21,145 nucleotides of DNA from Euperipatoides rowelli (lineage: Eukaryota > Onychophora > Udeonychophora > Euonychophora > Peripatopsidae), in NCBI GenBank assembly GCA_003024985.2, contig PXIH01S0017006.1, one strand, 5' to 3'. A program made the translations under genes and the position numbers. The notes beneath the pieces were generated by a model. The model searched no databases. It was given only the letters and a program-made list of their open reading frames with translations, and was not told where the DNA came from. How positions within the stretch are numbered: position 1 is the first letter of the stretch; each line of letters starts with the position of its first letter. Shown here piece by piece: positions 3,544 to 21,145 of the stretch.

Positions 3544-5274
3544 AAAATAGACAAGAATAAAATATAAGACAGAATGAAGAAAAACTAATTGTGTAAGGTG
3601 TTAGAAGATCAGAAATATTAGCTAAAAAACAAATGAATGTAGAAAGTGAGGAAGTAAATGTAATAACTGAAGAAATAAATGTAATAAATGAAGATATAAA
3701 ATGGATACTAAAAGGTTTGAAGATATTAAAGGAACAACATATCAAATAAAGTGGAGGAAAAGCATGGACATAGAGAAACAATCTTTAGATTTACATAAAC
3801 TTTGGTAGTTAGTACTAAGAGAGCAAGATATGAAAGTTATTAAGAGCAAATGGGTGTATAATATTAAGGAAAACCCTGATGGAACAGTAAATAAAAGAAA
3901 AGCAAGATTAGTAGCTATGGGATAATCAGGTAGTGGAATAGATTATGAAAAATCATTCTCGCCAGTTGAAAAAATGGAATCATTTAGAATTTTAATGACT
4001 ATGGTATCACATTTAAATCTTAAATATAAACAATATGATATTAAAACAGCCTACTTGAATGGAGATTTAACAGAAACATTATTTATGGAGAACCCAAAAG
4101 AGTTTATATGGAAAGGAGATGAAAATAAAGTATCAAACTGTTAAAGAGTAGATACAGAGCTACTACAGTCTGGGAGAAATTGGAATGAGAAGTTAAACTC
4201 AATAGTCAAAGAATGTGAAATGAAATGACTGGAAAGTGATCCTTGTATGTATGTGAAAAGAGAAAAAGAAAAGATATATATTAGGAGTTTAGTAGATGAT
4301 ATCATTGCAGAAACTAATATAGCAGAAATTGAAAAATTAAGTAAAAAGATGAGAGAAAATTTTGAATTAGTAGAAAGGAGTGATGAGATGTTCATAGGAA
4401 TTGAAATTAACCAAACACCAGATGGAATAGAGTTATCATAAAAAAAAAACTTTTATTGATAAGATACTGGATAAATTTTGATTAAAATACTGTAGGCTAA
4501 CTGTCTAAAATATCCTGTGGATCTGAGACAAGATTTAGATAATCATGAAGACTCTACACTTATTGATCAGAGCATATACCAAGAAATGATAGGTTCGCTT
4601 GTATATTTATCAAATGGTACAAGACCAGATATAGCATATAGTGTCTGTAGATTATCACAGTATAATAAGAATCCAAAACGAATGCATTTAACAGCTGTAA
4701 AATGAATATATCGTTATTTAAAAGGAACTAAAGATTATATAATTAAATATTCAATAGAAAAAGGGAATATAAATATAAGCATAGACTCAAGTTGGTGATC
4801 CACAGCTGATAGTAAATCTTTTGGTGGATATATTGTAAAACTGGGTGAGTCATTAGCTAGCTGGAAGTGCCAAAAACAAAATCTAGTTAGACTTTCAACA
4901 TGTGAGGCAGAGATGATTGTGATCAGTGAAGGTGTGAGAGACATTAAGTGGATAACTAGTTTATTGTCTGAATTATTGGAGTTGAGAGAGTATATACAAT
5001 TACCAGTAGTGATACACACAGATAACAAAGCTGTTATAGAATGGTTTAAAAGCTCAGTATCATTAGGAGACAATTAACATTAATAGAAAATTTCACTTTG
5101 TTAAGGAAGAATTATTGAAAGGACATATCAAGTTGAATTTTGTGAAATCTGAAGATATGGAAGCTGATTTTTTTAACAAAGCCTATATGTGTGGAACTCA
5201 TAATTATAATGACACTAGCCAAAAATTGAGTATTTGTAAGAAAACATTATCAGTCCATAGGTAAAAGGGGGAAT
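3544..5274 (+). mobile_element. Ty1/copia pol remnant: linker, RT and RNase H (3' part of split element)
   Basis: Broken frames give a copia-type RT and RNase H in the usual order. KWVYNIKENPDGTVNKRKAR (about 3850-3905) is the strongly conserved start of copia RT. Motif A reads QYDIKTAYLNGD, with its Asp at 4037-4039. The catalytic box reads LVDD at 4289-4300, against the family's YVDD, and both Asp are kept. DQSIYQEMIGSLVYLSNGTRPD (about 4570-4630) is the conserved post-RT block. RNase H shows STCEAE at 4895-4912 and HTDNKAVIEWF near 5018-5050. Many stops show that it is dead. A polypurine tract, AAAAGGGGGAAT, lies directly before the LTR. Confidence 0.85.
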
Positions 5275-8379: not shown

Positions 8380-8380
8380 N
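8380..8380. other. Single-N scaffold join
   Basis: One N between otherwise resolved sequence. Five such Ns occur in the window, and three abut duplicated sequence, so they look like zero-length contig joins. No overlap was found across this one. Confidence 0.7.
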
Positions 8381-9268: not shown

Positions 9269-9412
9269 ATATCAATTTTCATCATTTTTGTTTTTAATTT
9301 TAATTTGTCCAAAATGGATTATTTCATTCTTAAAGGACTGGACCCTTGTTTTTATATTTAAAATCATTATTATATTCTTCCATTTCTTGGATTTCAAAAT
9401 GTTGTGAACATC
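9269..9412 (+). other. Probable 5' UTR part of the glycosyltransferase exon
   Basis: Follows a good acceptor (TTTTATTGTTTAATTTCAG, ending at 9268) and leads to the ATG at 9413. It carries no in-frame extension of the glycosyltransferase: the frame used at 9180-9407 is different and stops at 9407. It is inferred to be untranslated leader, not proven. Confidence 0.4.
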
Positions 9413-10471
9413 ATGAAACGAAAAATCAAAAGATTTTTTATTTCTCGCTACCGATTTAAGATACTATTTATTTTTGTATCATGTTTTATTGTTGGACTAT
9501 TATCGTGGGGCTCTATTCTCTCATATATTCATAAAGAATATATAATCATTTATTCAAGGGAACATCCTTATATACCATGGATTTCAAATATTTCTATAAA
9601 CTGCAGTGCAGCTATCCTGGGGCAAGAAGATGAAATTAAGAAAATGGAAATGTATTCAATGCCCCTACCATCTGATTTGGAAATTTATCAACTAACTAAA
9701 AATTGTAAAAGTTATAAAAAGTTGAGAGGCTATTTTGAAATGCCTCTCTCAGCCGAAGAAGAAAATTTTCCCATTGCTTATAGCATTACAGTTCATAAAA
9801 CAGCAGCCGAACTAGAACATTTAATCAGAGCCATCTACTGGCCACAAAATTATTATTGCATTCATATTGATAAAAAGTCCGATTCTATGTTTCATAGTGC
9901 GGTAAGAAACATTGCCAAATGTTTTGATAATATATTTATTGCTTCAAAATTAGAACGTATTATATATCCATCAATTTCAATAATACAGGCTGATCTAAAC
10001 TGCATGAAAGATTTACTTACTTATCCTAATTGGAAATACTTGATTAATCTTGTGAGTCAAGATTTTCCACTTAAAACTAATTCTGAACTTGTGCAGATTT
10101 TGAAGATTTTTAATGGAACAAATGATATTGAAAGTTTTGAATCTCAGAGTATTATGTCACGTACAAAATACAAATTTATAGTAGAATATAAGAATAAGGA
10201 ATTTCAATTAGTTCAAACTGATGAACTAAAAGATTTGCCGCCAATGTCCTTAAGGAAAGGAAGCCGCTATGGAACATTTAGTCGTGGATTTGTAGACTTT
10301 ATTATAACTAATAATAACTCTATTAAATTATTTCATTGGCTTCATGATACAAGCAATCCTGATGAATCCTATTTTGGAACCTTAAATTCTAATCCAAGTT
10401 GTGACGCACCTGGTGGGTGGTATGGTAGGTATTTTACAATCAAATTCCCTGCATCTGCTTGCTTTAGATAA
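9413..10471 (+). CDS. Core-2/I-branching beta-1,6-N-acetylglucosaminyltransferase-like (GT14), C-terminus uncertain
   Basis: A 352-residue frame. The ATG at 9413, with A at -3, is the likely start; the frame also opens at a GTG at 9404. It has a basic N-terminus and one membrane segment (residues 16-38), as in type II Golgi glycosyltransferases, then a stem with Cys64 and Cys98. The GT14 domain follows: FPIAYSITVHK (119-129), RAIYWPQNYYCIHID (139-153), FIASKLE (175-181), QADLNCMKDL (192-201), QDFPLKTN (216-223), NDIES (237-241), KGSRYGTFSRGFV (282-294) and NPDESYFGTLN (315-325). Glu318 matches the catalytic Glu of the family. Members transfer GlcNAc from UDP-GlcNAc to O-glycans. The Cys usual in the NLCG motif is Val214. 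Family members run to about 400-430 residues with a basic phosphate-binding C-terminus, absent here. A donor, TATG|GTAGGT, after 10424 (phase 1) suggests that a last exon follows downstream. The alternative is a frame truncated at 10471. Confidence 0.85.
   Translation: MKRKIKRFFISRYRFKILFIFVSCFIVGLLSWGSILSYIHKEYIIIYSREHPYIPWISNISINCSAAILGQEDEIKKMEMYSMPLPSDLEIYQLTKNCKSYKKLRGYFEMPLSAEEENFPIAYSITVHKTAAELEHLIRAIYWPQNYYCIHIDKKSDSMFHSAVRNIAKCFDNIFIASKLERIIYPSISIIQADLNCMKDLLTYPNWKYLINLVSQDFPLKTNSELVQILKIFNGTNDIESFESQSIMSRTKYKFIVEYKNKEFQLVQTDELKDLPPMSLRKGSRYGTFSRGFVDFIITNNNSIKLFHWLHDTSNPDESYFGTLNSNPSCDAPGGWYGRYFTIKFPASACFR
10425..10430 (+). promoter_or_regulatory. Candidate 5' splice donor in the glycosyltransferase frame
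   Basis: GTAGGT follows TATG, close to the metazoan donor consensus, and lies just where the conserved PDE...PGG block ends. Using it would leave phase 1. No matching downstream exon was recognised before the next contig join, so it stays a candidate. Confidence 0.4.
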
Positions 10472-13438: not shown

Positions 13439-13656
13439 ATTACATAATTTCTGTGGACTGAAGTAATTCCATAGCAATTGATAACTGTACACACCCTGTG
13501 TTTTTCTGATTAAATCATTATTCATTAATAGCAATATACTGTTGTTGTCACTTATCTTGATAGGCTATCTATTAGCACATTCTCCTAATATACAGCTAAT
13601 AAAATCTATTTTTTCGGCCCTCATTAAACTTTAGCATTACACTTAAGTTGGAACAG
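13439..13656 (+). repeat. Direct repeat, copy 1
   Basis: Nearly the same as 13863-14087, with about eight substitutions and a short indel. Both copies end at GGAACAG. After this copy the sequence continues with unrelated bases to the N at 13862. Confidence 0.85.
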
Positions 13657-13861
13657 TTATGACTACTGACTAGCATCTGGAATCTCTGGATCCCAGATAT
13701 GCATTTTCCCCTAGCGAGATTTTATCCTTTGGCTACGTCAAATTGACGTCAGCAGTCAGATTTTTTTTTTTTTTAAACAACTTAGAAACTTGCAAATTTT
13801 TATATGTTTCAGTTTAAATTTTCCAAATTGATTAATTAAACAAATATTTTTAGGTAAAACT

Positions 13862-13862
13862 N
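13862..13862. other. Single-N scaffold join
   Basis: The base after this N starts the second copy of a diverged repeat whose first copy begins at 13439. This fits a poorly resolved allelic or repeat overlap between two contigs. Confidence 0.75.
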
Positions 13863-14087
13863 ATTGCATAATTTCTGTGGACTGAAGTAGTTCCATAACA
13901 ATTGATAACTGTACACACCCTGTGTTTTTCTGATTAAATCATTATTCATTAATAGTAAGGTACTGTTGTTGTCACTCATCTTGATAGGCTATCTATTAGC
14001 ACATTCTCCTAATATACAGCTACTAAAATCACTTAATTATTTTTTCGGCCCTCATTAAACTTTAGCATTACACTTAAGTTGGAACAG
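13863..14087 (+). repeat. Direct repeat, copy 2 (right end of the insertion)
   Basis: Diverged copy of 13439-13656, starting at the contig edge. It runs directly into the 7-bp target duplication and then into LINE endonuclease codons, so this copy carries the true right end of the insertion. Confidence 0.85.
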
Positions 14088-15125
14088 AATTTTATGAGGA
14101 TGTGCAGAATTTGTATGATGAAGGTAAGACTTATTAGAAAATTATTATGGGTGACTTCAATGCAAAAATAGGAGTACAACAAAAAGATGACAATTCAGTG
14201 GGAAAATTTGGTCATGTTTTTAGGACTGATAGAGGAGACAGAATGGTAGAATTTTCAAAGAATAATAATTAATTGGTTCATTATGAAGGCACCAAACAGG
14301 AAATGGACTTGCAGAAGACCATATAGAGTAAAGGATGAAATTGATTATATTATTGTTAACAACAAGATAGTGCAAGACATCTCAGTACACAACCAATTCA
14401 ACACATGCAGTGATCACAAGCTAGTAAGGTGTCGTACAATTCTAAATACAGCACTTGAAAAGGTTAAACTTGTCAAAGGGAAGTTTCAGTCAATTGATAG
14501 GGAGTACCTAGGAAAACATGCACATAAGTATCAGAACTTAAAAACAGATTCAGCACATTACTAGATGTGCAGGAAGAAGTACAAGATCAGGAATTAATCA
14601 ACTTTACTATCAAAGAAATATCTTAGATGCAGCATAAGAATCATTGGTACAAAAGACAATAACTCTGATAAAAAAAACTAACACAAACGTGATGTTAAAC
14701 AAGAAAGATTCAAAGTTAATAATTGAATATGTTGAGCTCTTTGAAACATTAGGAAGATGCATTACAGAGGACATATGAGCTTTCAACTGTGATTTGATCA
14801 AGAAAACAATTGAGAAAAATAAAAGTGTGAAGAAAACTAAACAAAATTTAATGATTGGGAAAAATAAAATATTAGCAATAAAAAATGGGACCATTACTAG
14901 TAATAAAAAATTTATTGTCCAATGAGTTGACAACGACACTATCAAGATGAATCAGATAATACCAACATTAAAGATGAAGATCAAAAAGAAGACATAAATG
15001 ATTTAACTGACACAATGATTAATGTACCACATGTACTCACAGAAGAAGTGAAGCATGCAGTGAAACACATGAAGAATGGAAAGGGACCAAAGGAAGACAA
15101 CATAATTTATATTATAAAAGCAGGA
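14086..15125 (+). mobile_element. RTE-like LINE, endonuclease C-terminal half and start of RT linker
   Basis: Resumes the endonuclease with EFYEDVQNLYDEGKTY, then IIMGDFNAKIG (about 14144-14175), the core metal-binding motif of AP-type endonucleases. RTDRGDRMVEFSKNNN follows. After a frame change come KAPNRKWTC (14286 on), EIDYIIVNN and SDHKLVRCR (about 14410-14435), which holds the catalytic Asp-His. Further on, VLTEEVKHAVKHMKNGKGP (about 15030-15090) is the conserved block just before RT in this family. RT itself is absent: similarity stops near 15125. Stops throughout make it a dead, 3'-truncated copy. From 14570 to 15010 the linker is recognisable only by its Lys/Asp-rich composition. Confidence 0.75.
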
Positions 15126-15424
15126 ATAAGTTGACTATGATAGTACATTACATTACAGAGAGTTTGTTTATTATTAAATCTCACAATTGAGGATAAAAAC
15201 CCTGCAGCAATCATAGTTCTGATATGGTTTGGAAAATAACTGAATTTTGAATCATAACATCTATCTGAAATTATTAAGAATAGCTAGTAAAGTGTAGGCT
15301 ACTATTTTTTATTTGTTCACAATGTTTTAATTTACAATTAACTTAATATAAATTCATTTATGATTAAAACTTATTATAAATATTAGTTCTTGTTTACTTT
15401 TTGGTATTATAATATTTTCACTTT
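15126..15424. other. AT-rich non-coding sequence ending at a contig join
   Basis: No gene. The last 88 bases (15337-15424) are identical to 16278-16365 and end at the N. Confidence 0.6.
15337..15424 (+). repeat. 88-bp exact duplicate at contig end (partner 16278-16365)
   Basis: Identical over 88 bases by eye to the first 88 bases after the N at 16277. It ends at the N at 15425. Best read as an unmerged contig overlap. Confidence 0.9.
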
Positions 15425-15425
15425 N
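15425..15425. other. Single-N scaffold join (probably wrong order)
   Basis: Separates the 88-bp duplicate from a contig that carries a hAT end and a P4-ATPase exon. Confidence 0.8.
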
Positions 15426-15465
15426 TTTAGGGGTTCCTCCATGGAAAAAAGGTTGAGAAACACTG
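15426..15465 (-). mobile_element. hAT-type transposon terminus fragment
   Basis: Ends GGTTGAGAAACACTG at 15465, the reverse of CAGTGTTTCTCAACC, a widespread hAT terminal inverted repeat. The other end is not in the window because the contig starts within the element. GTCTACAC at 15466-15473 would be one copy of the 8-bp target duplication. The strand is arbitrary. Confidence 0.5.
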
Positions 15466-15910
15466 GTCTACACTATGGAACCTACAGTAATCTGTTAAAA
15501 CTTCTTGAGAGACAATATTTAGTCATTTATTATCACCATGTTTAGTCATTATTTTGATATTGTTTAAAAACCAACTTGTGATAATGCTACCTACAATTGT
15601 ACATTAGAAAATACAACTTTTGTAGTAGTCGCCAACAGAGTTTAGTTGTCAAGTCAAAAGTAACGTTAAAATGTTGAAAGCATGCAGCGATAACATAAAA
15701 TTAATGATAGATTTTAGGGTAAATTTATAACTTCATATTTTATATTTGATGTAAATCATCTTAAGTCTTAATAGAAGTAATATGTTCCATTTTAGATGTG
15801 TTTATTTGTTGTAGGAATCAATGTCCTTCAATCAGTCCTAATATTTTAAACTTTTTATATTAATAATTACATGATTTAGTAAATATATGTCTATATTTTA
15901 AATTTTTTAG
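15466..15910 (+). other. Intron upstream of the P4-ATPase exon
   Basis: AT-rich sequence with no coding signal, ending in a pyrimidine-rich acceptor, AATTTTTTAG, at 15910. Confidence 0.6.
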
Positions 15911-16155
15911 AAACCGCCATAAACATCGGCTATTCATGTAAACTGCTGGCAGATGACATGCATGATATATTTATTGTTGATGAAAGCACTTATGAGACTG
16001 TAGAACGTCAACTGATTGACATACGTAACAAAATTCGTTCCGTCCTGAGCCGTGAGGGATCGACTTCTGTCCACTTTAGGAATACCGTTACTGATCATCA
16101 TGACCTGGATGAAGACATGTCGGGCTTTGCATTAGTTATCAATGGCCACAGCTTG
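15911..16155 (+). CDS. P4-ATPase (phospholipid flippase) internal exon
   Basis: A 245-bp exon. The acceptor TTTTTTAG is at 15910 and the donor TTG|GTAAAT follows 16155. It enters in phase 1 (two bases of a Glu codon) and leaves in phase 0. It starts with (E)TAINIGYSCKLLADDM, directly after the expected TGDKQE of the P domain in an upstream exon, and ends GFALVINGHSL, the conserved block before the next P-domain motif. The middle is the variable linker (residues about 20-70). P4-ATPases move aminophospholipids from the outer to the cytosolic leaflet, usually with a CDC50 partner. GYSCKLL and INGHSL suggest the ATP8B or related subfamily, but one exon cannot settle it. The frame is intact and richer in GC than its flanks, so the gene looks functional. 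Other exons lie outside this contig, probably towards or beyond 20691. Confidence 0.9.
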
Positions 16156-16276
16156 GTAAATATATGTTTTTAATTGTGGTAAATGACTGGTAAAGATTTC
16201 AGTAAAACTTAATCGTAATAAATTTATTTATATGAATAGCATAATTTTTTTTAAAATTCTGATTAACCTTATAGGG
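16156..16276 (+). other. Intron downstream of the P4-ATPase exon, cut at a contig end
   Basis: Starts with the donor GTAAAT. Its last 20 bases (16257-16276) equal 20691-20710, so the intron probably continues at 20711. Confidence 0.7.
16257..16276 (+). repeat. 20-bp exact duplicate at contig end (partner 20691-20710)
   Basis: TTCTGATTAACCTTATAGGG sits directly before the N at 16277 and directly after the N at 20690. This is the pattern of an unmerged contig overlap. Confidence 0.9.
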
Positions 16277-16277
16277 N
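16277..16277. other. Single-N scaffold join (probably wrong order)
   Basis: The sequence right after it repeats the end of the contig before the previous N. Confidence 0.8.
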
Positions 16278-16365
16278 ATTAACTTAATATAAATTCATTT
16301 ATGATTAAAACTTATTATAAATATTAGTTCTTGTTTACTTTTTGGTATTATAATATTTTCACTTT
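16278..16365 (+). repeat. 88-bp exact duplicate at contig start (partner 15337-15424)
   Basis: First 88 bases of the contig that carries the gypsy element; identical to 15337-15424. Confidence 0.9.
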
Positions 16366-16375
16366 AAAATGTATC

Positions 16376-16590
16376 TGTAGTGTATTACACTAATTAAGGC
16401 TAATTATGTGTAATACACACAAGATGTCATGTTCCTTCTGGAACAAATGACCGATTGATTCTGTTCATATTGAATCTAGTTGTAACTATGTTATAAGTTA
16501 GTATTAGTTAAATAAATGTTATTTACCTGTAAGGTCCCAAGAGTCATTTGTTATAAGGACCTAGAATAATTTAACTGGTGAGATAGAAGT
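16376..16590 (+). repeat. Possible 5' LTR / leader of the Ty3/gypsy element
   Basis: Begins TGTAGTGTAT (16376-16385), which is the exact inverse of ATACACTACA at 20318-20327. AATAAATG near 16510 could be a polyadenylation signal. TTTAACTGGTGAGATAG (about 16569-16585) resembles the primer-binding region that follows the 5' LTR in K02A2.6-like gypsy elements. The sequence does not visibly match the 3' LTR candidate at 20116, and no 5-bp target duplication was found, so the LTR call is weak. Confidence 0.3.
16380..16418. repeat. Long inverted repeat / hairpin
   Basis: GTGTATTACAC (16380-16390) and GTGTAATACAC (16408-16418) are perfect inverses. The inner TAATTA pair extends the stem, with one bulge and an AGGC loop. 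About 17 paired bases in 39. Confidence 0.85.
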
Positions 16591-16618
16591 CTAAATAAAT
16601 TTTGATCGAAATATTAAT

Positions 16619-17061
16619 ATGTCTTTTAATCGAATCAAAGTTTTTGATCTGGAAATACAGTCTTGGGACGATATGTTAAAAGGTTAAGATTTTTTTTGCT
16701 AGCAACAAAAGATGAAGAAAAACTTTTGGTTCCTACAATCATTAAGCTATTAGGAGACAAAATGTATACTGTTTTATGCAATCTTTTTGCACCAAAAGAT
16801 CCAGACACAAAGAAAGCAGATGAATTATTAGATAGACTCTCGGAATACTTTTCTCCAAAGATTCTAATATCTTCTAGAGATTCCATTTTTCGAAAAGGAT
16901 ACAAAAAAGAACAATCCATTGTAGATTATATCCTGGAATTGAAGAAACTCAGTAAAAATTGTAAATATGGCAGTATCCTAGAACATCAGATTTGTGAACA
17001 GTTTGTTTATGGTCTAGTCAATCCTGAAATCCATACAAGATTATTGTTGAGGAAACCTTAA
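16619..17061 (+). pseudogene. Gypsy gag capsid-like remnant
   Basis: The ATG at 16619 opens FDLEIQSWDDML, the usual start of K02A2.6-like gag. One frameshift near 16665-16680 leads into the long frame at 16663-17061. This continues with FFLLATKDEEKLLVPTIIKL, LLGDKMYTVLCNLFAPKDP and YILELKKLSKNCKYGS, then FVYGLVNPEIHTRLL. This block is a typical gypsy capsid (FVxGLxNxxIxxxLL). A stop at 17059-17061 ends it early. Its role would be particle assembly. Confidence 0.7.
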
Positions 17062-17458
17062 CATTAGATTTAGAATAAATTAGCTAATAGTATGAATCAG
17101 CAAAAAAAGAGAGCAAGTATCTTTGGGTTAAATAAGAATGTAGAAGGAATCTTGTCTGTTAAAAAAGACGTACATTTTAAAAACACTAACATAACTCGAC
17201 CTGAACTTTCATTAGTGCTCACCATAAATCCAATTGCCAATTTAAATATGTCTATAACTACCATAAAAAATAGGTTAGCTAAAGTTTGTCCCTTGCTATC
17301 TTAAATTTCCAACGAGACATTTCAAAAATGGCCATAAACAAGAATATTATAAAGCTGACATCATTAAGCTAATGAAAATAATGTCACTGAGTATGATTTT
17401 TACCAGCTGATGTCAAAGCAACTTCTTTTGTTATTGGCGAACCAATCATGATCTAGCT
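17062..17458 (+). pseudogene. Decayed gag C-terminus / nucleocapsid region
   Basis: An open frame at 17092-17304 is Lys/Asn-rich without a domain. A cysteine-histidine cluster near 17282-17335 may be the remains of a zinc knuckle, but the CCHC spacing is not intact. Confidence 0.35.
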
Positions 17459-17636
17459 CTTGGTAAATAAACAAAACATTGTGTTTGAAATTGACACAGG
17501 AGCAGGAGTAACCTTAATCTCAAAAGAAATATATTTACATAAATTTTCACAGTGTAACTACTTAAAACTAACATACACCATCAAGAAAAAAATTAAACCT
17601 TTAGGGAAAAATAAAACCTTTTGTCTGTTTAAATAA
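17459..17636 (+). pseudogene. Gypsy aspartic protease remnant
   Basis: Uninterrupted frame with FEIDTGAGVTLISKEIY. The catalytic DTGA box is at 17493-17504 (family: DTGA/DTGS). It ends at a stop near 17636, before the flap and C-terminal Gly-rich part are clear. Its role would be to cleave Gag-Pol. Confidence 0.7.
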
Positions 17637-17789
17637 TATGTCAATAATGCACTAGATAGTACCATAATTCACTAGGTAGAAGCTGGATTTCAAAATTTTT
17701 AACTTAAACATACATAAACCAGTGAACTCTGTCAAAATTAATAAAATATAATCTATTGAATAGGAGAAGATGTTACACAGTTAAGCAAA

Positions 17790-18600
17790 ACTATTTTCTC
17801 CAGTGTTAGAAGAACTTCAAGGATTTGCAGTTCATCTAGTCCTACACACACAATGCAACTCCGAGACTTTAAAACTTCGACTAGCAATAGAATTTGATAA
17901 ACTACAAAAACAAGGAATATTAGTACCTATTCAACGCTCTAAATGGGCAGCCTTTGTAGTGCCTATTCTAAATAAGGATAACTCAATCCGTCTGTGTAGT
18001 GATTATAAGGTAGGGGTAAACCCTGTTTTTGCTAAAGACTATTCTCACTAAACAGGATTGAGGACCTTTTCAAAGTTAAATGGAGGAATAATTTTTAGTA
18101 AATTAGATATGACACAGGCATATCAACAGTTACATATGGACAAGGAGTAATGGTTTACATTAACTACAAACACTCATGAGGGCCTTTTTAAGGTACCTAG
18201 GATGCCATTTGGTATTTCTACAGCCCACACCATTTTTCAAACAATAATGGACCAAATATTAGTTGACATTGAAGAAGGCATTTTATTTGTTATCTTGATA
18301 TCATTGTCACTGGTAAATCTATTCCTGAACTTATAGCTAATTTAAACAAGGACACTGGTATTACATTAAACAAACACAAAATAATGTGAATTCCTAAAAC
18401 CTAGTGTGGATTACTTAGACAATCTATTGATGCAAAGGGACTACACACTCTGCAAGCAAAAATTTCTGATATTCTTTGAGCCTCCATACCCAAGAATATA
18501 TATCAACACTTAGATCATTTTTTTAGGATTAGTCAATTATTATCAGAAATTCTTAACTAACTTAGCCTCTACATTAGCCCCTTTAAATCCCAAATTCAAA
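17790..18600 (+). pseudogene. Gypsy reverse transcriptase remnant 1
   Basis: Frame 17803-18051 has LAIEFDKLQKQGILVPIQRS, WAAFVVPILNKDNSIRLCSD and YKVGVNPVFAKD, the fingers region of K02A2.6-like RT. Next comes FSKLDMTQAYQQLHMDKE (about 18075-18147, motif A Asp kept), then a stop, then GLFKVPRMPFGISTAH (motif B-like) and IFQTIMDQIL. The catalytic box reads YLD then IIVTGK at 18291-18317. The family has YLDDI, so one Asp codon is missing in frame. Stops follow in the thumb. Confidence 0.75.
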
Positions 18601-18829
18601 ATTCACATCAACAAAAACTGACTCATAAACCCACTCAGGTAAATGTTTCTAGTCTAGATGTCTAAACTGGAAACCATAAATGTCCCAAAACCCACATTTT
18701 CTATCTAATAATCAGGTTGGTTCTTAACCTGCATCAAATCAATAAGATACAAAATTATTAAATTACCTGCAATGCAATATACATGAAATTCTTGACCTTT
18801 TGGTTCCAGTTACTTCTTTAAAATTGATT

Positions 18830-19240
18830 TAAACAATGGTTATTGTCAGATCATCCCTGATCCTTTTGTCATAGATTGATGCTGCTTTATGATGCCTTGG
18901 GCCAGATATAATTTGAATCATTTGTACAGGGTTCTCTAATATCCACCACTGACTTTCAGAAATTATGAATGATATATTACCTGATAAATATCTTCAGGTA
19001 AGATCTTGAGTTATCAAGATGATGTGTTGGTACATACTGCAACAGCTGAGGAACATATTATGTTAAGAACATTATTTGAAAAGTTAAACTCTTTGGATTT
19101 AGATACTAGTCATCAAAATGCGGCTTTTTCTACACCATTAATTGACAAATTGAAATTGTAAGAGAATTTCCTAGTCCAAAAACTTTAAAGCAAGTAAGGT
19201 CATTTTTAGCACTGTTAAATTTATTGTAAATTTATTGTCA
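18830..19240 (+). pseudogene. Gypsy reverse transcriptase remnant 2
   Basis: A second, different RT piece in the same direction. IMNDILPDKYLQ-like codons (about 18964-19000) lead to a YQDDVLVHT box with both Asp (YQDD at 19012-19023), then EEHIMLRTLFEKLNSLDL and, after frame changes, EFPSPKTLKQVRSFLALLN (about 19165-19225), the conserved block ahead of RNase H. It cannot be a continuation of remnant 1, which already has its own catalytic box and post-RT part. Confidence 0.65.
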
Positions 19241-19289
19241 ATGTACAGTATTTAACAAGACAGCTCCATTATATGAACTTTTATTTACA

Positions 19290-19570
19290 CTAGAATTGGT
19301 TTCTGATAATGGTTCTAAGTTGTGTTCAGAAGAATTTGAACATTTCTTAAAATCAAATGGAATTATTCATACTTTAGTTCGACTTACCACCCTTCTTCAA
19401 ATAGAGTAGCCGAAAGATATGTTGGTACATTCAAAATAGCTTTGAAGAAGATGAACTATGATAATGCAAACTATGCTACACTGCAGTGCAAAATTGCTCA
19501 TTTTTTTATTAAATTATAGATCTACCCCTCATGCTACTACATTTGTGAGCCCATCTAAATTATTTATTAG
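19290..19570 (+). pseudogene. Gypsy integrase core remnant
   Basis: LVSDNGSKLCSEEFEHFLKS carries the second catalytic Asp (19305-19307). After a one-base frameshift near 19380, SSNRVAERYVGTFK carries the catalytic Glu (19412-19414). Then LNYRSTPHATTFVSPSKLF (about 19513-19566) gives the conserved end of the core. The zinc-binding domain and the first Asp are missing. The start joins directly to RT/RNase H-like sequence at about 19290. Confidence 0.75.
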
Positions 19571-19639
19571 CAAACCACTTATCATTAATAAGACCTAACA
19601 TTGCATCAAATGTATATAATAGTCTAATGAAACAAAAGT

Positions 19640-20056
19640 TAAACCATGATGGGAACAGTGATAAACATATGTTTGAATTTGGATAATCTGTTTAGATTTG
19701 AGAATTTACAAATGGTAAGGCACCTTGGTCAAAAGGTATAATAACTGGTATTCAGAGTTCTTGCATATAGTTTGGATTTGTATACATGTTAACCAAATGA
19801 GAAGCAGAGTGAGCAAGATGAACCAGTACTGCCTGCAAAAATAAGAAAAGAGCATAACCCTGTTGCGAATGAAACTTATGAATCATCATGATAATCTTGA
19901 AGATATTAATTCTACAATTACTCATCCTAAAGTTACTAACCCAGCAAACTCCACCAACACAGCTCAAGAAACTTCCAAGGAAAATGAACATGAAAATGAG
20001 GAGGTAGTGCCTACATCAAGATGTTACCCATCACGGAACCAAAAGGCACTTGATTG
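19640..20056 (+). pseudogene. Gypsy pol C-terminal tail
   Basis: Broken frames with a chromodomain-less tail. A frame at 19863-20057 is Asn/Thr/Glu-rich and ends TSRCYPSRNQKALD, matching the RYPSRxRxxPxRL end found in K02A2.6-like pol proteins just before the polypurine tract. Confidence 0.55.
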
Positions 20057-20115
20057 ATTAAACTTGTATATTCATGTCCAATGACTCTCACTTAATAAAA
20101 GGGGGGGGGGGTTAT

Positions 20116-20327
20116 TGTGGTATAAGTTGTGATCCCATGGTAGAACGAGAACAGGGGGAGACTAGAAGATGGGGAAATATTCAAATGGCGAAGTATTCAA
20201 ATGGCACTGATTTTACTTTCATTATCTCCAATTTGTATTTCTTATATCCCAGAATAAATATTCCTTCATCTATAAACTATTGTGTTTAGTATCTCTATGT
20301 CAAAGTACTTTTGACAAATACACTACA
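20116..20327 (+). repeat. Candidate gypsy 3' LTR
   Basis: Starts TGTGGTATAAG after a G-rich polypurine tract (A4 G11, 20097-20111). It contains a near-tandem 16-bp unit with TATTCAAATGGC twice (about 20182-20213) and AATAAA near 20254. A TG...CA end at ACTACA (20327) is possible. No matching 5' LTR was seen in the window. Confidence 0.45.
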
Positions 20328-20390
20328 CTAACCATCTATTCTGACTTAATTTTAAAATATTTAGAGAATAGTTAACTTAGAGCAGTTTCC

Positions 20391-20689
20391 ATTTAACGGG
20401 CTTTAAGAGTTTAACTTTGTTGATCATGAATTATTCTTGAGAGACATTATTGATATTCAAGTTTCTCTAGTATCATTTAATGGCTAACTACCACCAGATT
20501 CTTGTGCCCCTTTCAGGTATTCCTCAGGAGTCCATTCCGAGCAGTTTAATTTGTGCTATTTCTATAAACAAAATTGCTAAATAGATAGATGCCTGCTTTA
20601 ATTTTGTAGATGACTTAACTATTGTTTGTATTGCTGATAGCTCTAATATTGCTAATGTTGACCAAAATAGCTTTGACATCTATATATAT
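20391..20689 (+). mobile_element. LINE reverse transcriptase fragment
   Basis: FNFVDHELFLRDI (about 20411-20450) is an RT motif A region with its SxxFDxVDHxxLL pattern. In other frames, PLSGIPQESIPSSL (about 20510-20555) is a motif B-like GIPQGSPLSP, and FVDDLTIVC (about 20605-20632) is motif C, with both Asp. Frames are broken. The contig ends at the N at 20690, so the element is cut. It resembles the 463-3543 LINE in motif style, but I have not shown that they are the same family. Confidence 0.65.
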
Positions 20690-20690
20690 N
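20690..20690. other. Single-N scaffold join (probably wrong order)
   Basis: Directly followed by the 20 bases that end the P4-ATPase contig at 16276. Confidence 0.8.
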
Positions 20691-21145
20691 TTCTGATTAA
20701 CCTTATAGGGCTCAAGTACGGAAAAATCCGTATGGAACTGAATTGCTTTTATGCTCAACTACTGATTAATCCGTAGGTCAAAGTTTAAGCTCAATTCCAG
20801 ATCATGTGATACAGTTATCACTTTAATCTCATAAAAAAACAAGACTACATTTAACTATGATTTAAACAAACCAATTTGAAAGTCTCTAACTTAAACAGCT
20901 GATTTTACATGATGATTTTTTTTTAATAAAAAAATTAATGGAAACCTGAATCTTTTTGACGATTTTTCTTTTAAAGGTAAATAATTTTTTCAGCTTTTTA
21001 TTTTGTATGACGGTGTTATTTGTCATTTATAGGTCATTATATTTGAGTTATAATATTGTGCAATATGTCAAATGAAAGGTAAATTGGCATAGAATTGTTC
21101 TATGTGAGTGGTATGGATGCTTAATTTTAACAAAATCATTTATAA
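20691..21145. other. Probable continuation of the P4-ATPase intron
   Basis: Starts with the 20-bp overlap to 16257-16276. A small perfect hairpin, TACGGA-AAAA-TCCGTA, lies at 20717-20732. No exon with P4-ATPase similarity was seen before the window ends. Confidence 0.5.

Follow-up and report, generated by a model that had tools for sequence, protein, structure and literature searches.

The scaffolding errors of OPERA-LG were often errors of local order in under-constrained regions, according to the accessible part of its report, which adds that small contigs frequently have under-constrained positions (PMC4864936). A second close parallel is the overlap that is left unmerged: in the part of the Meraculous report available to us, negative gaps correspond to overlapping contigs whose overlap was too short or too repetitive for joining (PMC3158087). 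The locus analysed here resembles both. On one hand, it shares with local ordering (relocation) errors a small contig of 851 bp lying among repeats and adjacent contigs that have apparently been swapped with their orientation kept; the evidence, however, comes from unmerged exact overlaps and not from a reference genome. On the other hand, as in unmerged overlaps or haplotype duplications at gaps, sequence is doubled across placeholder Ns, including a pair of 93% identical segments (X and X′) at the N at 13862. In contrast to such cases, the two exact overlaps found here join next-but-one pieces and not scaffold neighbours.

The window, by which we mean the whole stretch of 21,145 nucleotides that was analysed, corresponds to positions 5012-26156 of the 26,156-base scaffold C2529, and its end is the right end of that scaffold. 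It contains single Ns only, at 8380, 13862, 15425, 16277 and 20690, and these five Ns separate six pieces with lengths of 8379, 5481, 1562, 851, 4412 and 455 bases (Table 1). Judging from the comparisons of contig ends and repeat copies described below, we think it likely that pieces 4 and 5 were scaffolded in the wrong order and that their overlaps were left untrimmed. The apparent duplications of 88 and 20 bases are then probably artefacts of assembly and not biology.

Table 1. Pieces, overlaps and paired segments in the right-hand part of the window
Feature	Position	Strand	Basis
Piece 3: X′, LINE-like unit and, truncated by the end of the contig, repeat R	13863..15424	+	Ns at 13862 and 15425; further copies of R and of the LINE-like unit in the genome searched
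Piece 4: contig of 851 bp that carries one P4-ATPase (flippase) exon	15426..16276	+	Protein and profile matches to the exon
Piece 5: 88-bp overlap first, then decayed retroelement-like sequence	16278..20689	+	Continuation of R; retroelement-like by eye
Piece 6: scaffold end, interspersed repeat from about the 7th base	20691..21145	+	30 other matches; shared sequence after TTCTGA
88-bp overlap, end of piece 3	15337..15424	+	Identical to 16278-16365
88-bp overlap, start of piece 5	16278..16365	+	Identical to 15337-15424
20-bp overlap, end of piece 4	16257..16276	+	Two exact places in the genome searched, the other being 20691-20710
20-bp overlap, start of piece 6 (14 bases of repeat after six of flank)	20691..20710	+	Exact match to 16257-16276
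X, in piece 2	13439..13656	+	93% identical to X′; pair at two places only
X′, start of piece 3	13863..14087	+	93% identical to X

Exact overlaps between contig ends

Among the 30 ordered pairs that can be formed from the six pieces, only two have an exact end-to-start overlap of at least 15 bases: piece 3 ends with the 88 bases that open piece 5, and piece 4 ends with the 20 bases that open piece 6. The earlier note had reported both identities and had remarked that the matches end at single Ns. On re-comparison both identities proved exact, and all four boundaries indeed coincide with an N that adjoins one of the copies: the 88-bp match is bounded by the N at 15425 on the right and that at 16277 on the left, the 20-bp match by the N at 16277 on the right and that at 20690 on the left. 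Neither match extends by even one base. For comparison, 2000 sets of 100-base piece ends were simulated from a first-order Markov model of the window, and the longest chance overlap among them was 8 bases.

Uniqueness was assessed in 100,911,507 bases of the genome (4324 contigs). The 20-mer occurs there twice, both times in this scaffold; as a control for the exact search, a 20-mer taken from base 7 of piece 6 onward was found once elsewhere. Of the 16 places listed for the 88-mer, two are perfect, both of them here, and the 14 others are 77-89% identical. For neither overlap does the genome searched hold an identical third copy.

Both matches lie within interspersed repeats and the Ns may conceal sequence, as could be the case if a real recent duplication had flanked piece 4 with two neighbouring copies of repeat R that share an identical stretch of 88 bases or more, and had likewise doubled the start of the other repeat. 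We regard such a duplication as highly unlikely, given that other R copies are at most 89% identical, that all four identity boundaries are tied to Ns, i.e. to contig edges, and that the 20-mer, absent from 17 other copies of its repeat and from the rest of the genome searched, includes six flank bases that are not part of the repeat. Still less probable, in our estimation, is that a single local rearrangement of the region around the flippase exon produced both pairs as real and very recent duplications, and that the assembly broke at each of the copies.

Repeat families at the two proposed joins

The 88 bases sit inside an interspersed repeat, R, which spans approximately 15127-15424 and runs on into piece 5. 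Seven of the 14 other matches to the 88-mer, located on six scaffolds, were read with their flanks. With piece 5 following the 88 bases, the alignment to these R copies extends by 7-13 more bases in all seven; with piece 4 following, it ends at or before base 88, again in all seven. Six of the copies have CACTTT and then CAAA.. or AAAAATG.., resembling AAAATGTAT of piece 5, and in the seventh (on C2637) the similarity is lost from base 76 of the 88 onward and resumes farther into piece 5. This continuation shows that piece 5 begins within an R copy, and because of the perfect 88-bp identity, pieces 3 and 5 would share the same copy. The join of piece 3 to piece 5, proposed in the earlier note, is thus well supported, the 88-mer having no other identical copy in the genome searched and the R family continuing into piece 5 in every copy read. 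When the window was searched for the sequence that follows R elsewhere, as a guide to where piece 5 leads, strong matches came only from additional R copies that two of the queries contained; the remaining ones had E values of 2e-5 or weaker and looked by eye mostly like A/T runs.

The elements on either side of this join were characterized only in outline. The LINE-like unit of piece 3 (14086-15124, about 1040 bases), tentatively classed by its motifs, has many copies elsewhere that share its left end and many that share its right end, as would be the case for a fixed-length derivative. The frame at 14138-14269 of piece 3 matched no family in the Pfam scan. In piece 5, the reading frames are interrupted by stops, an RT-like fragment can be recognized by eye at the end of the piece, and none of the three frames tried gave a Pfam family. 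The earlier suggestion that a LINE lies directly upstream of a gypsy element follows from the 3-5 join insofar as only repeat R would lie between the two; the label "gypsy", with two frames lacking a Pfam family, is unconfirmed.

Piece 6 represents an interspersed repeat with 30 other matches in the genome searched. Left edges were fetched for 17 of these matches (one copy, L052, which falls outside the flank pattern, was inspected by eye), and the repeat common to the copies starts at about base 7 of piece 6 (TTAACCTTATAGGG), the preceding TTCTGA being locus flank. The whole 20-mer is present in none of the 17 copies. Because it is absent both from these copies and from the rest of the genome searched, the join of piece 4 to piece 6, although short, is also well supported, in agreement with the earlier proposal. 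The evidence for continuity is weaker than at the 3-5 join, since it comes down to the six flank bases.

Assemblers break at repeat boundaries and unrelated contigs may share repeat ends, so that a mere chance or repeat-edge effect has to be considered as well, especially for an overlap of only 20 bases, 14 of which belong to the repeat. It is extremely improbable: the composition-based chance of the six flank bases is about 3e-4, only two of the 17 copies match the 14 repeat bases exactly, and the 20-mer as a whole is confined to these two contig ends. For the 88-mer, with its other copies at most 89% identical and a simulated maximum of 8 bases, such an effect is untenable.

Order of pieces 4 and 5

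Since exchanging pieces 4 and 5 once accounts for both joins, and piece 6 is the scaffold end, we infer a single event and a corrected order that would read 1-2-3-5-4-6. Under this explanation, pieces 3 and 5 would be neighbouring contigs with an 88-base overlap, pieces 4 and 6 would be neighbours with a 20-base overlap, and the scaffolder would have set the 851-bp piece 4 ahead of the 4.4-kb piece 5 rather than behind it. The misplacement would have moved the overlapping ends apart, so that they could not be merged; each overlap would then have been written twice, with a single N as a placeholder, presumably standing in for a gap whose estimated size was zero or negative. SSPACE is a program that marks a negative gap by a single N. 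In the accessible parts of the scaffolding literature, a statement that a given program does so was not found. Several points count against the swap: it requires a displacement of 4.4 kb, the end of piece 5 and the start of piece 4 are without a sequence link, and most of the 4-6 overlap is repeat.

Such a link was sought from the end of piece 5 to the start of piece 4, and was given up: the last 300 bases of piece 5 are single copy in the genome searched and offer no linking sequence. The very last of them, CTATATATAT, end in AT, as do the left flanks of the repeat with which piece 4 begins, which is too little for a link. Piece 4 itself starts with TTTAGGGGTTCC, the terminal bases of a mobile element other than R, which, by the look of this terminus, we take to be hAT-like. 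The first 36-54 bases or so of piece 4 recur elsewhere in the genome, and we read 10 of the 12 copies that begin at its first base, one being partly unreadable. In all 10, the left neighbour is an AT-rich element interior that ends in AT, unlike the ACTTT of piece 3; therefore, the junction of pieces 3 and 4 as given is not seamless. To judge from these copies, the N at 15425 is not a literal one-base gap, and real sequence, at the least the rest of the mobile element, must be missing ahead of piece 4.

The exon in piece 4 (approximately 15910-16158) matches yeast Drs2 (E 1.8e-5) and the profile TIGR01652 (E 5e-6, under the model's cut-off); no Pfam family was found for it at E 0.001. It is the sole TIGR01652 match reported in the 100.9 Mb, where one candidate only was scored, and this search found no partner exon for it. 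Exon order was also tried as an independent check of the order of pieces, and was set aside when no neighbouring exon was found before or after piece 4. Of 14 prokaryote control genomes, 12 also have matches to this profile; the search lacks specificity as well as sensitivity to short exons, which makes the absence of other exons weak evidence. An animal is expected to carry several P4-ATPase genes; the remaining part of the flippase gene may perhaps lie outside the sequence searched, or its short exons may have been missed. That the contig with the flippase exon continues at 20711, as previously claimed, follows from the 4-6 join.

These results matter chiefly to users of this assembly, as what we describe is an ordinary draft-assembly error and biologically ordinary as well. 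Neither the 88-bp nor the 20-bp duplication should be interpreted as the footprint of a transposition. The LINE-like unit and the retroelement-like sequence are not to be regarded as the flanks of the flippase exon, and the single N that precedes the contig of this exon should not be taken at face value as one missing base. As for method, exact overlaps between next-but-one contigs can reveal local order errors without reads.

X and X′, other single Ns and other genes of the window

X′ consists of the first 225 bases of piece 3. When its first 223 bases were searched alone, they were found at two places in the genome, both in this scaffold. X, near the end of piece 2, is followed by a high-copy repeat (13655-13861) with at least 42 other matches (42 of the 44 matches listed fall within it), and X′ leads into the LINE-like unit. 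Since the start of X′ coincides exactly with that of the contig and the pair was found nowhere else, it is best read as an unmerged overlap of diverged haplotypes; pieces 2 and 3 would probably be two haplotypes overlapping at the N at 13862. A local duplication is a possible alternative. The pair looks like another unmerged overlap in the same scaffold and, as such, counts in favour of an assembly artefact.

X and X′ also bear on the main rival to the swap, in which two chains, pieces 2-4-6 from one locus or haplotype and pieces 3-5 from the other haplotype or a paralogous locus, were woven together into one scaffold. Two segments that are 93% identical, confined to this scaffold and then followed by different repeats are what diverged haplotypes could look like, and the joins 3-5 and 4-6 are satisfied just as well. 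However, this explanation requires an alternation of two chains instead of one swap event, and a comparison of the window with itself (E 1e-3) finds nothing in pieces 3-6 that repeats the sequence of piece 2 downstream of X. On balance, we consider it unlikely. The idea of contigs "woven together", as the earlier note had put it, is supported as to both joins and broader than needed, a single exchange of pieces 4 and 5 being sufficient. Its underlying thought, that overlapping contigs were left unmerged, has gained support from the uniqueness of the overlaps and from the way in which other copies of the two repeats continue.

For a broader view of single Ns, we sampled 11 other places with 19 of them, considering pieces of at least 50 bases, which yielded 16 adjacent and 34 other ordered pairs. 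Nine of the latter are forward non-neighbours; the rest are reversed and often involve the edge of the locus instead of a contig end. An exact overlap of at least 15 bases was seen in none of the 16 adjacent pairs and in none of the 34 others. Thus, the swap error is not demonstrated as a habit of this assembly, nor does every single N hide an exact overlap. A cluster of three of the 19 Ns, all within 17 bases, looks like ambiguous bases and not like gaps. Inexact resemblances across Ns were found at L019 (24 bp, 92%), at L025 (251 bp, 82%, away from the edge, plus shorter pieces), at L041 across the N at 529 (82 bp, 77%, from base 5 of the next piece, plus a shorter piece) and at L062 (79 bp, 82%, and 175 bp, 70%, both interior). 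Repeats across Ns are not rare in the assembly, and none is exact in the other places sampled. The diverged resemblance at the N of L041 is perhaps comparable to X and X′.

The left part of the window holds two further coding regions. The region 3809-5261 reads as a decayed copia-like polymerase, with an RVT_2 match (E 3.2e-4, frame 3809-3922) below the Pfam cut-off. RNase-H-like text can be made out downstream by eye, and the corresponding frame (4799-5074) gave no family in the Pfam scan. At 9362-10468, an open frame of 369 amino acids encodes a core-2/I-branching GlcNAc transferase (PF02485, E 4.8e-46). It covers positions 1-209 of the 250 in the profile, so the end of the protein is either missing or located in another exon. 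Its best match is a turtle record that carries two copies of the domain, and several of the next named matches are from molluscs, at 43-47% identity.
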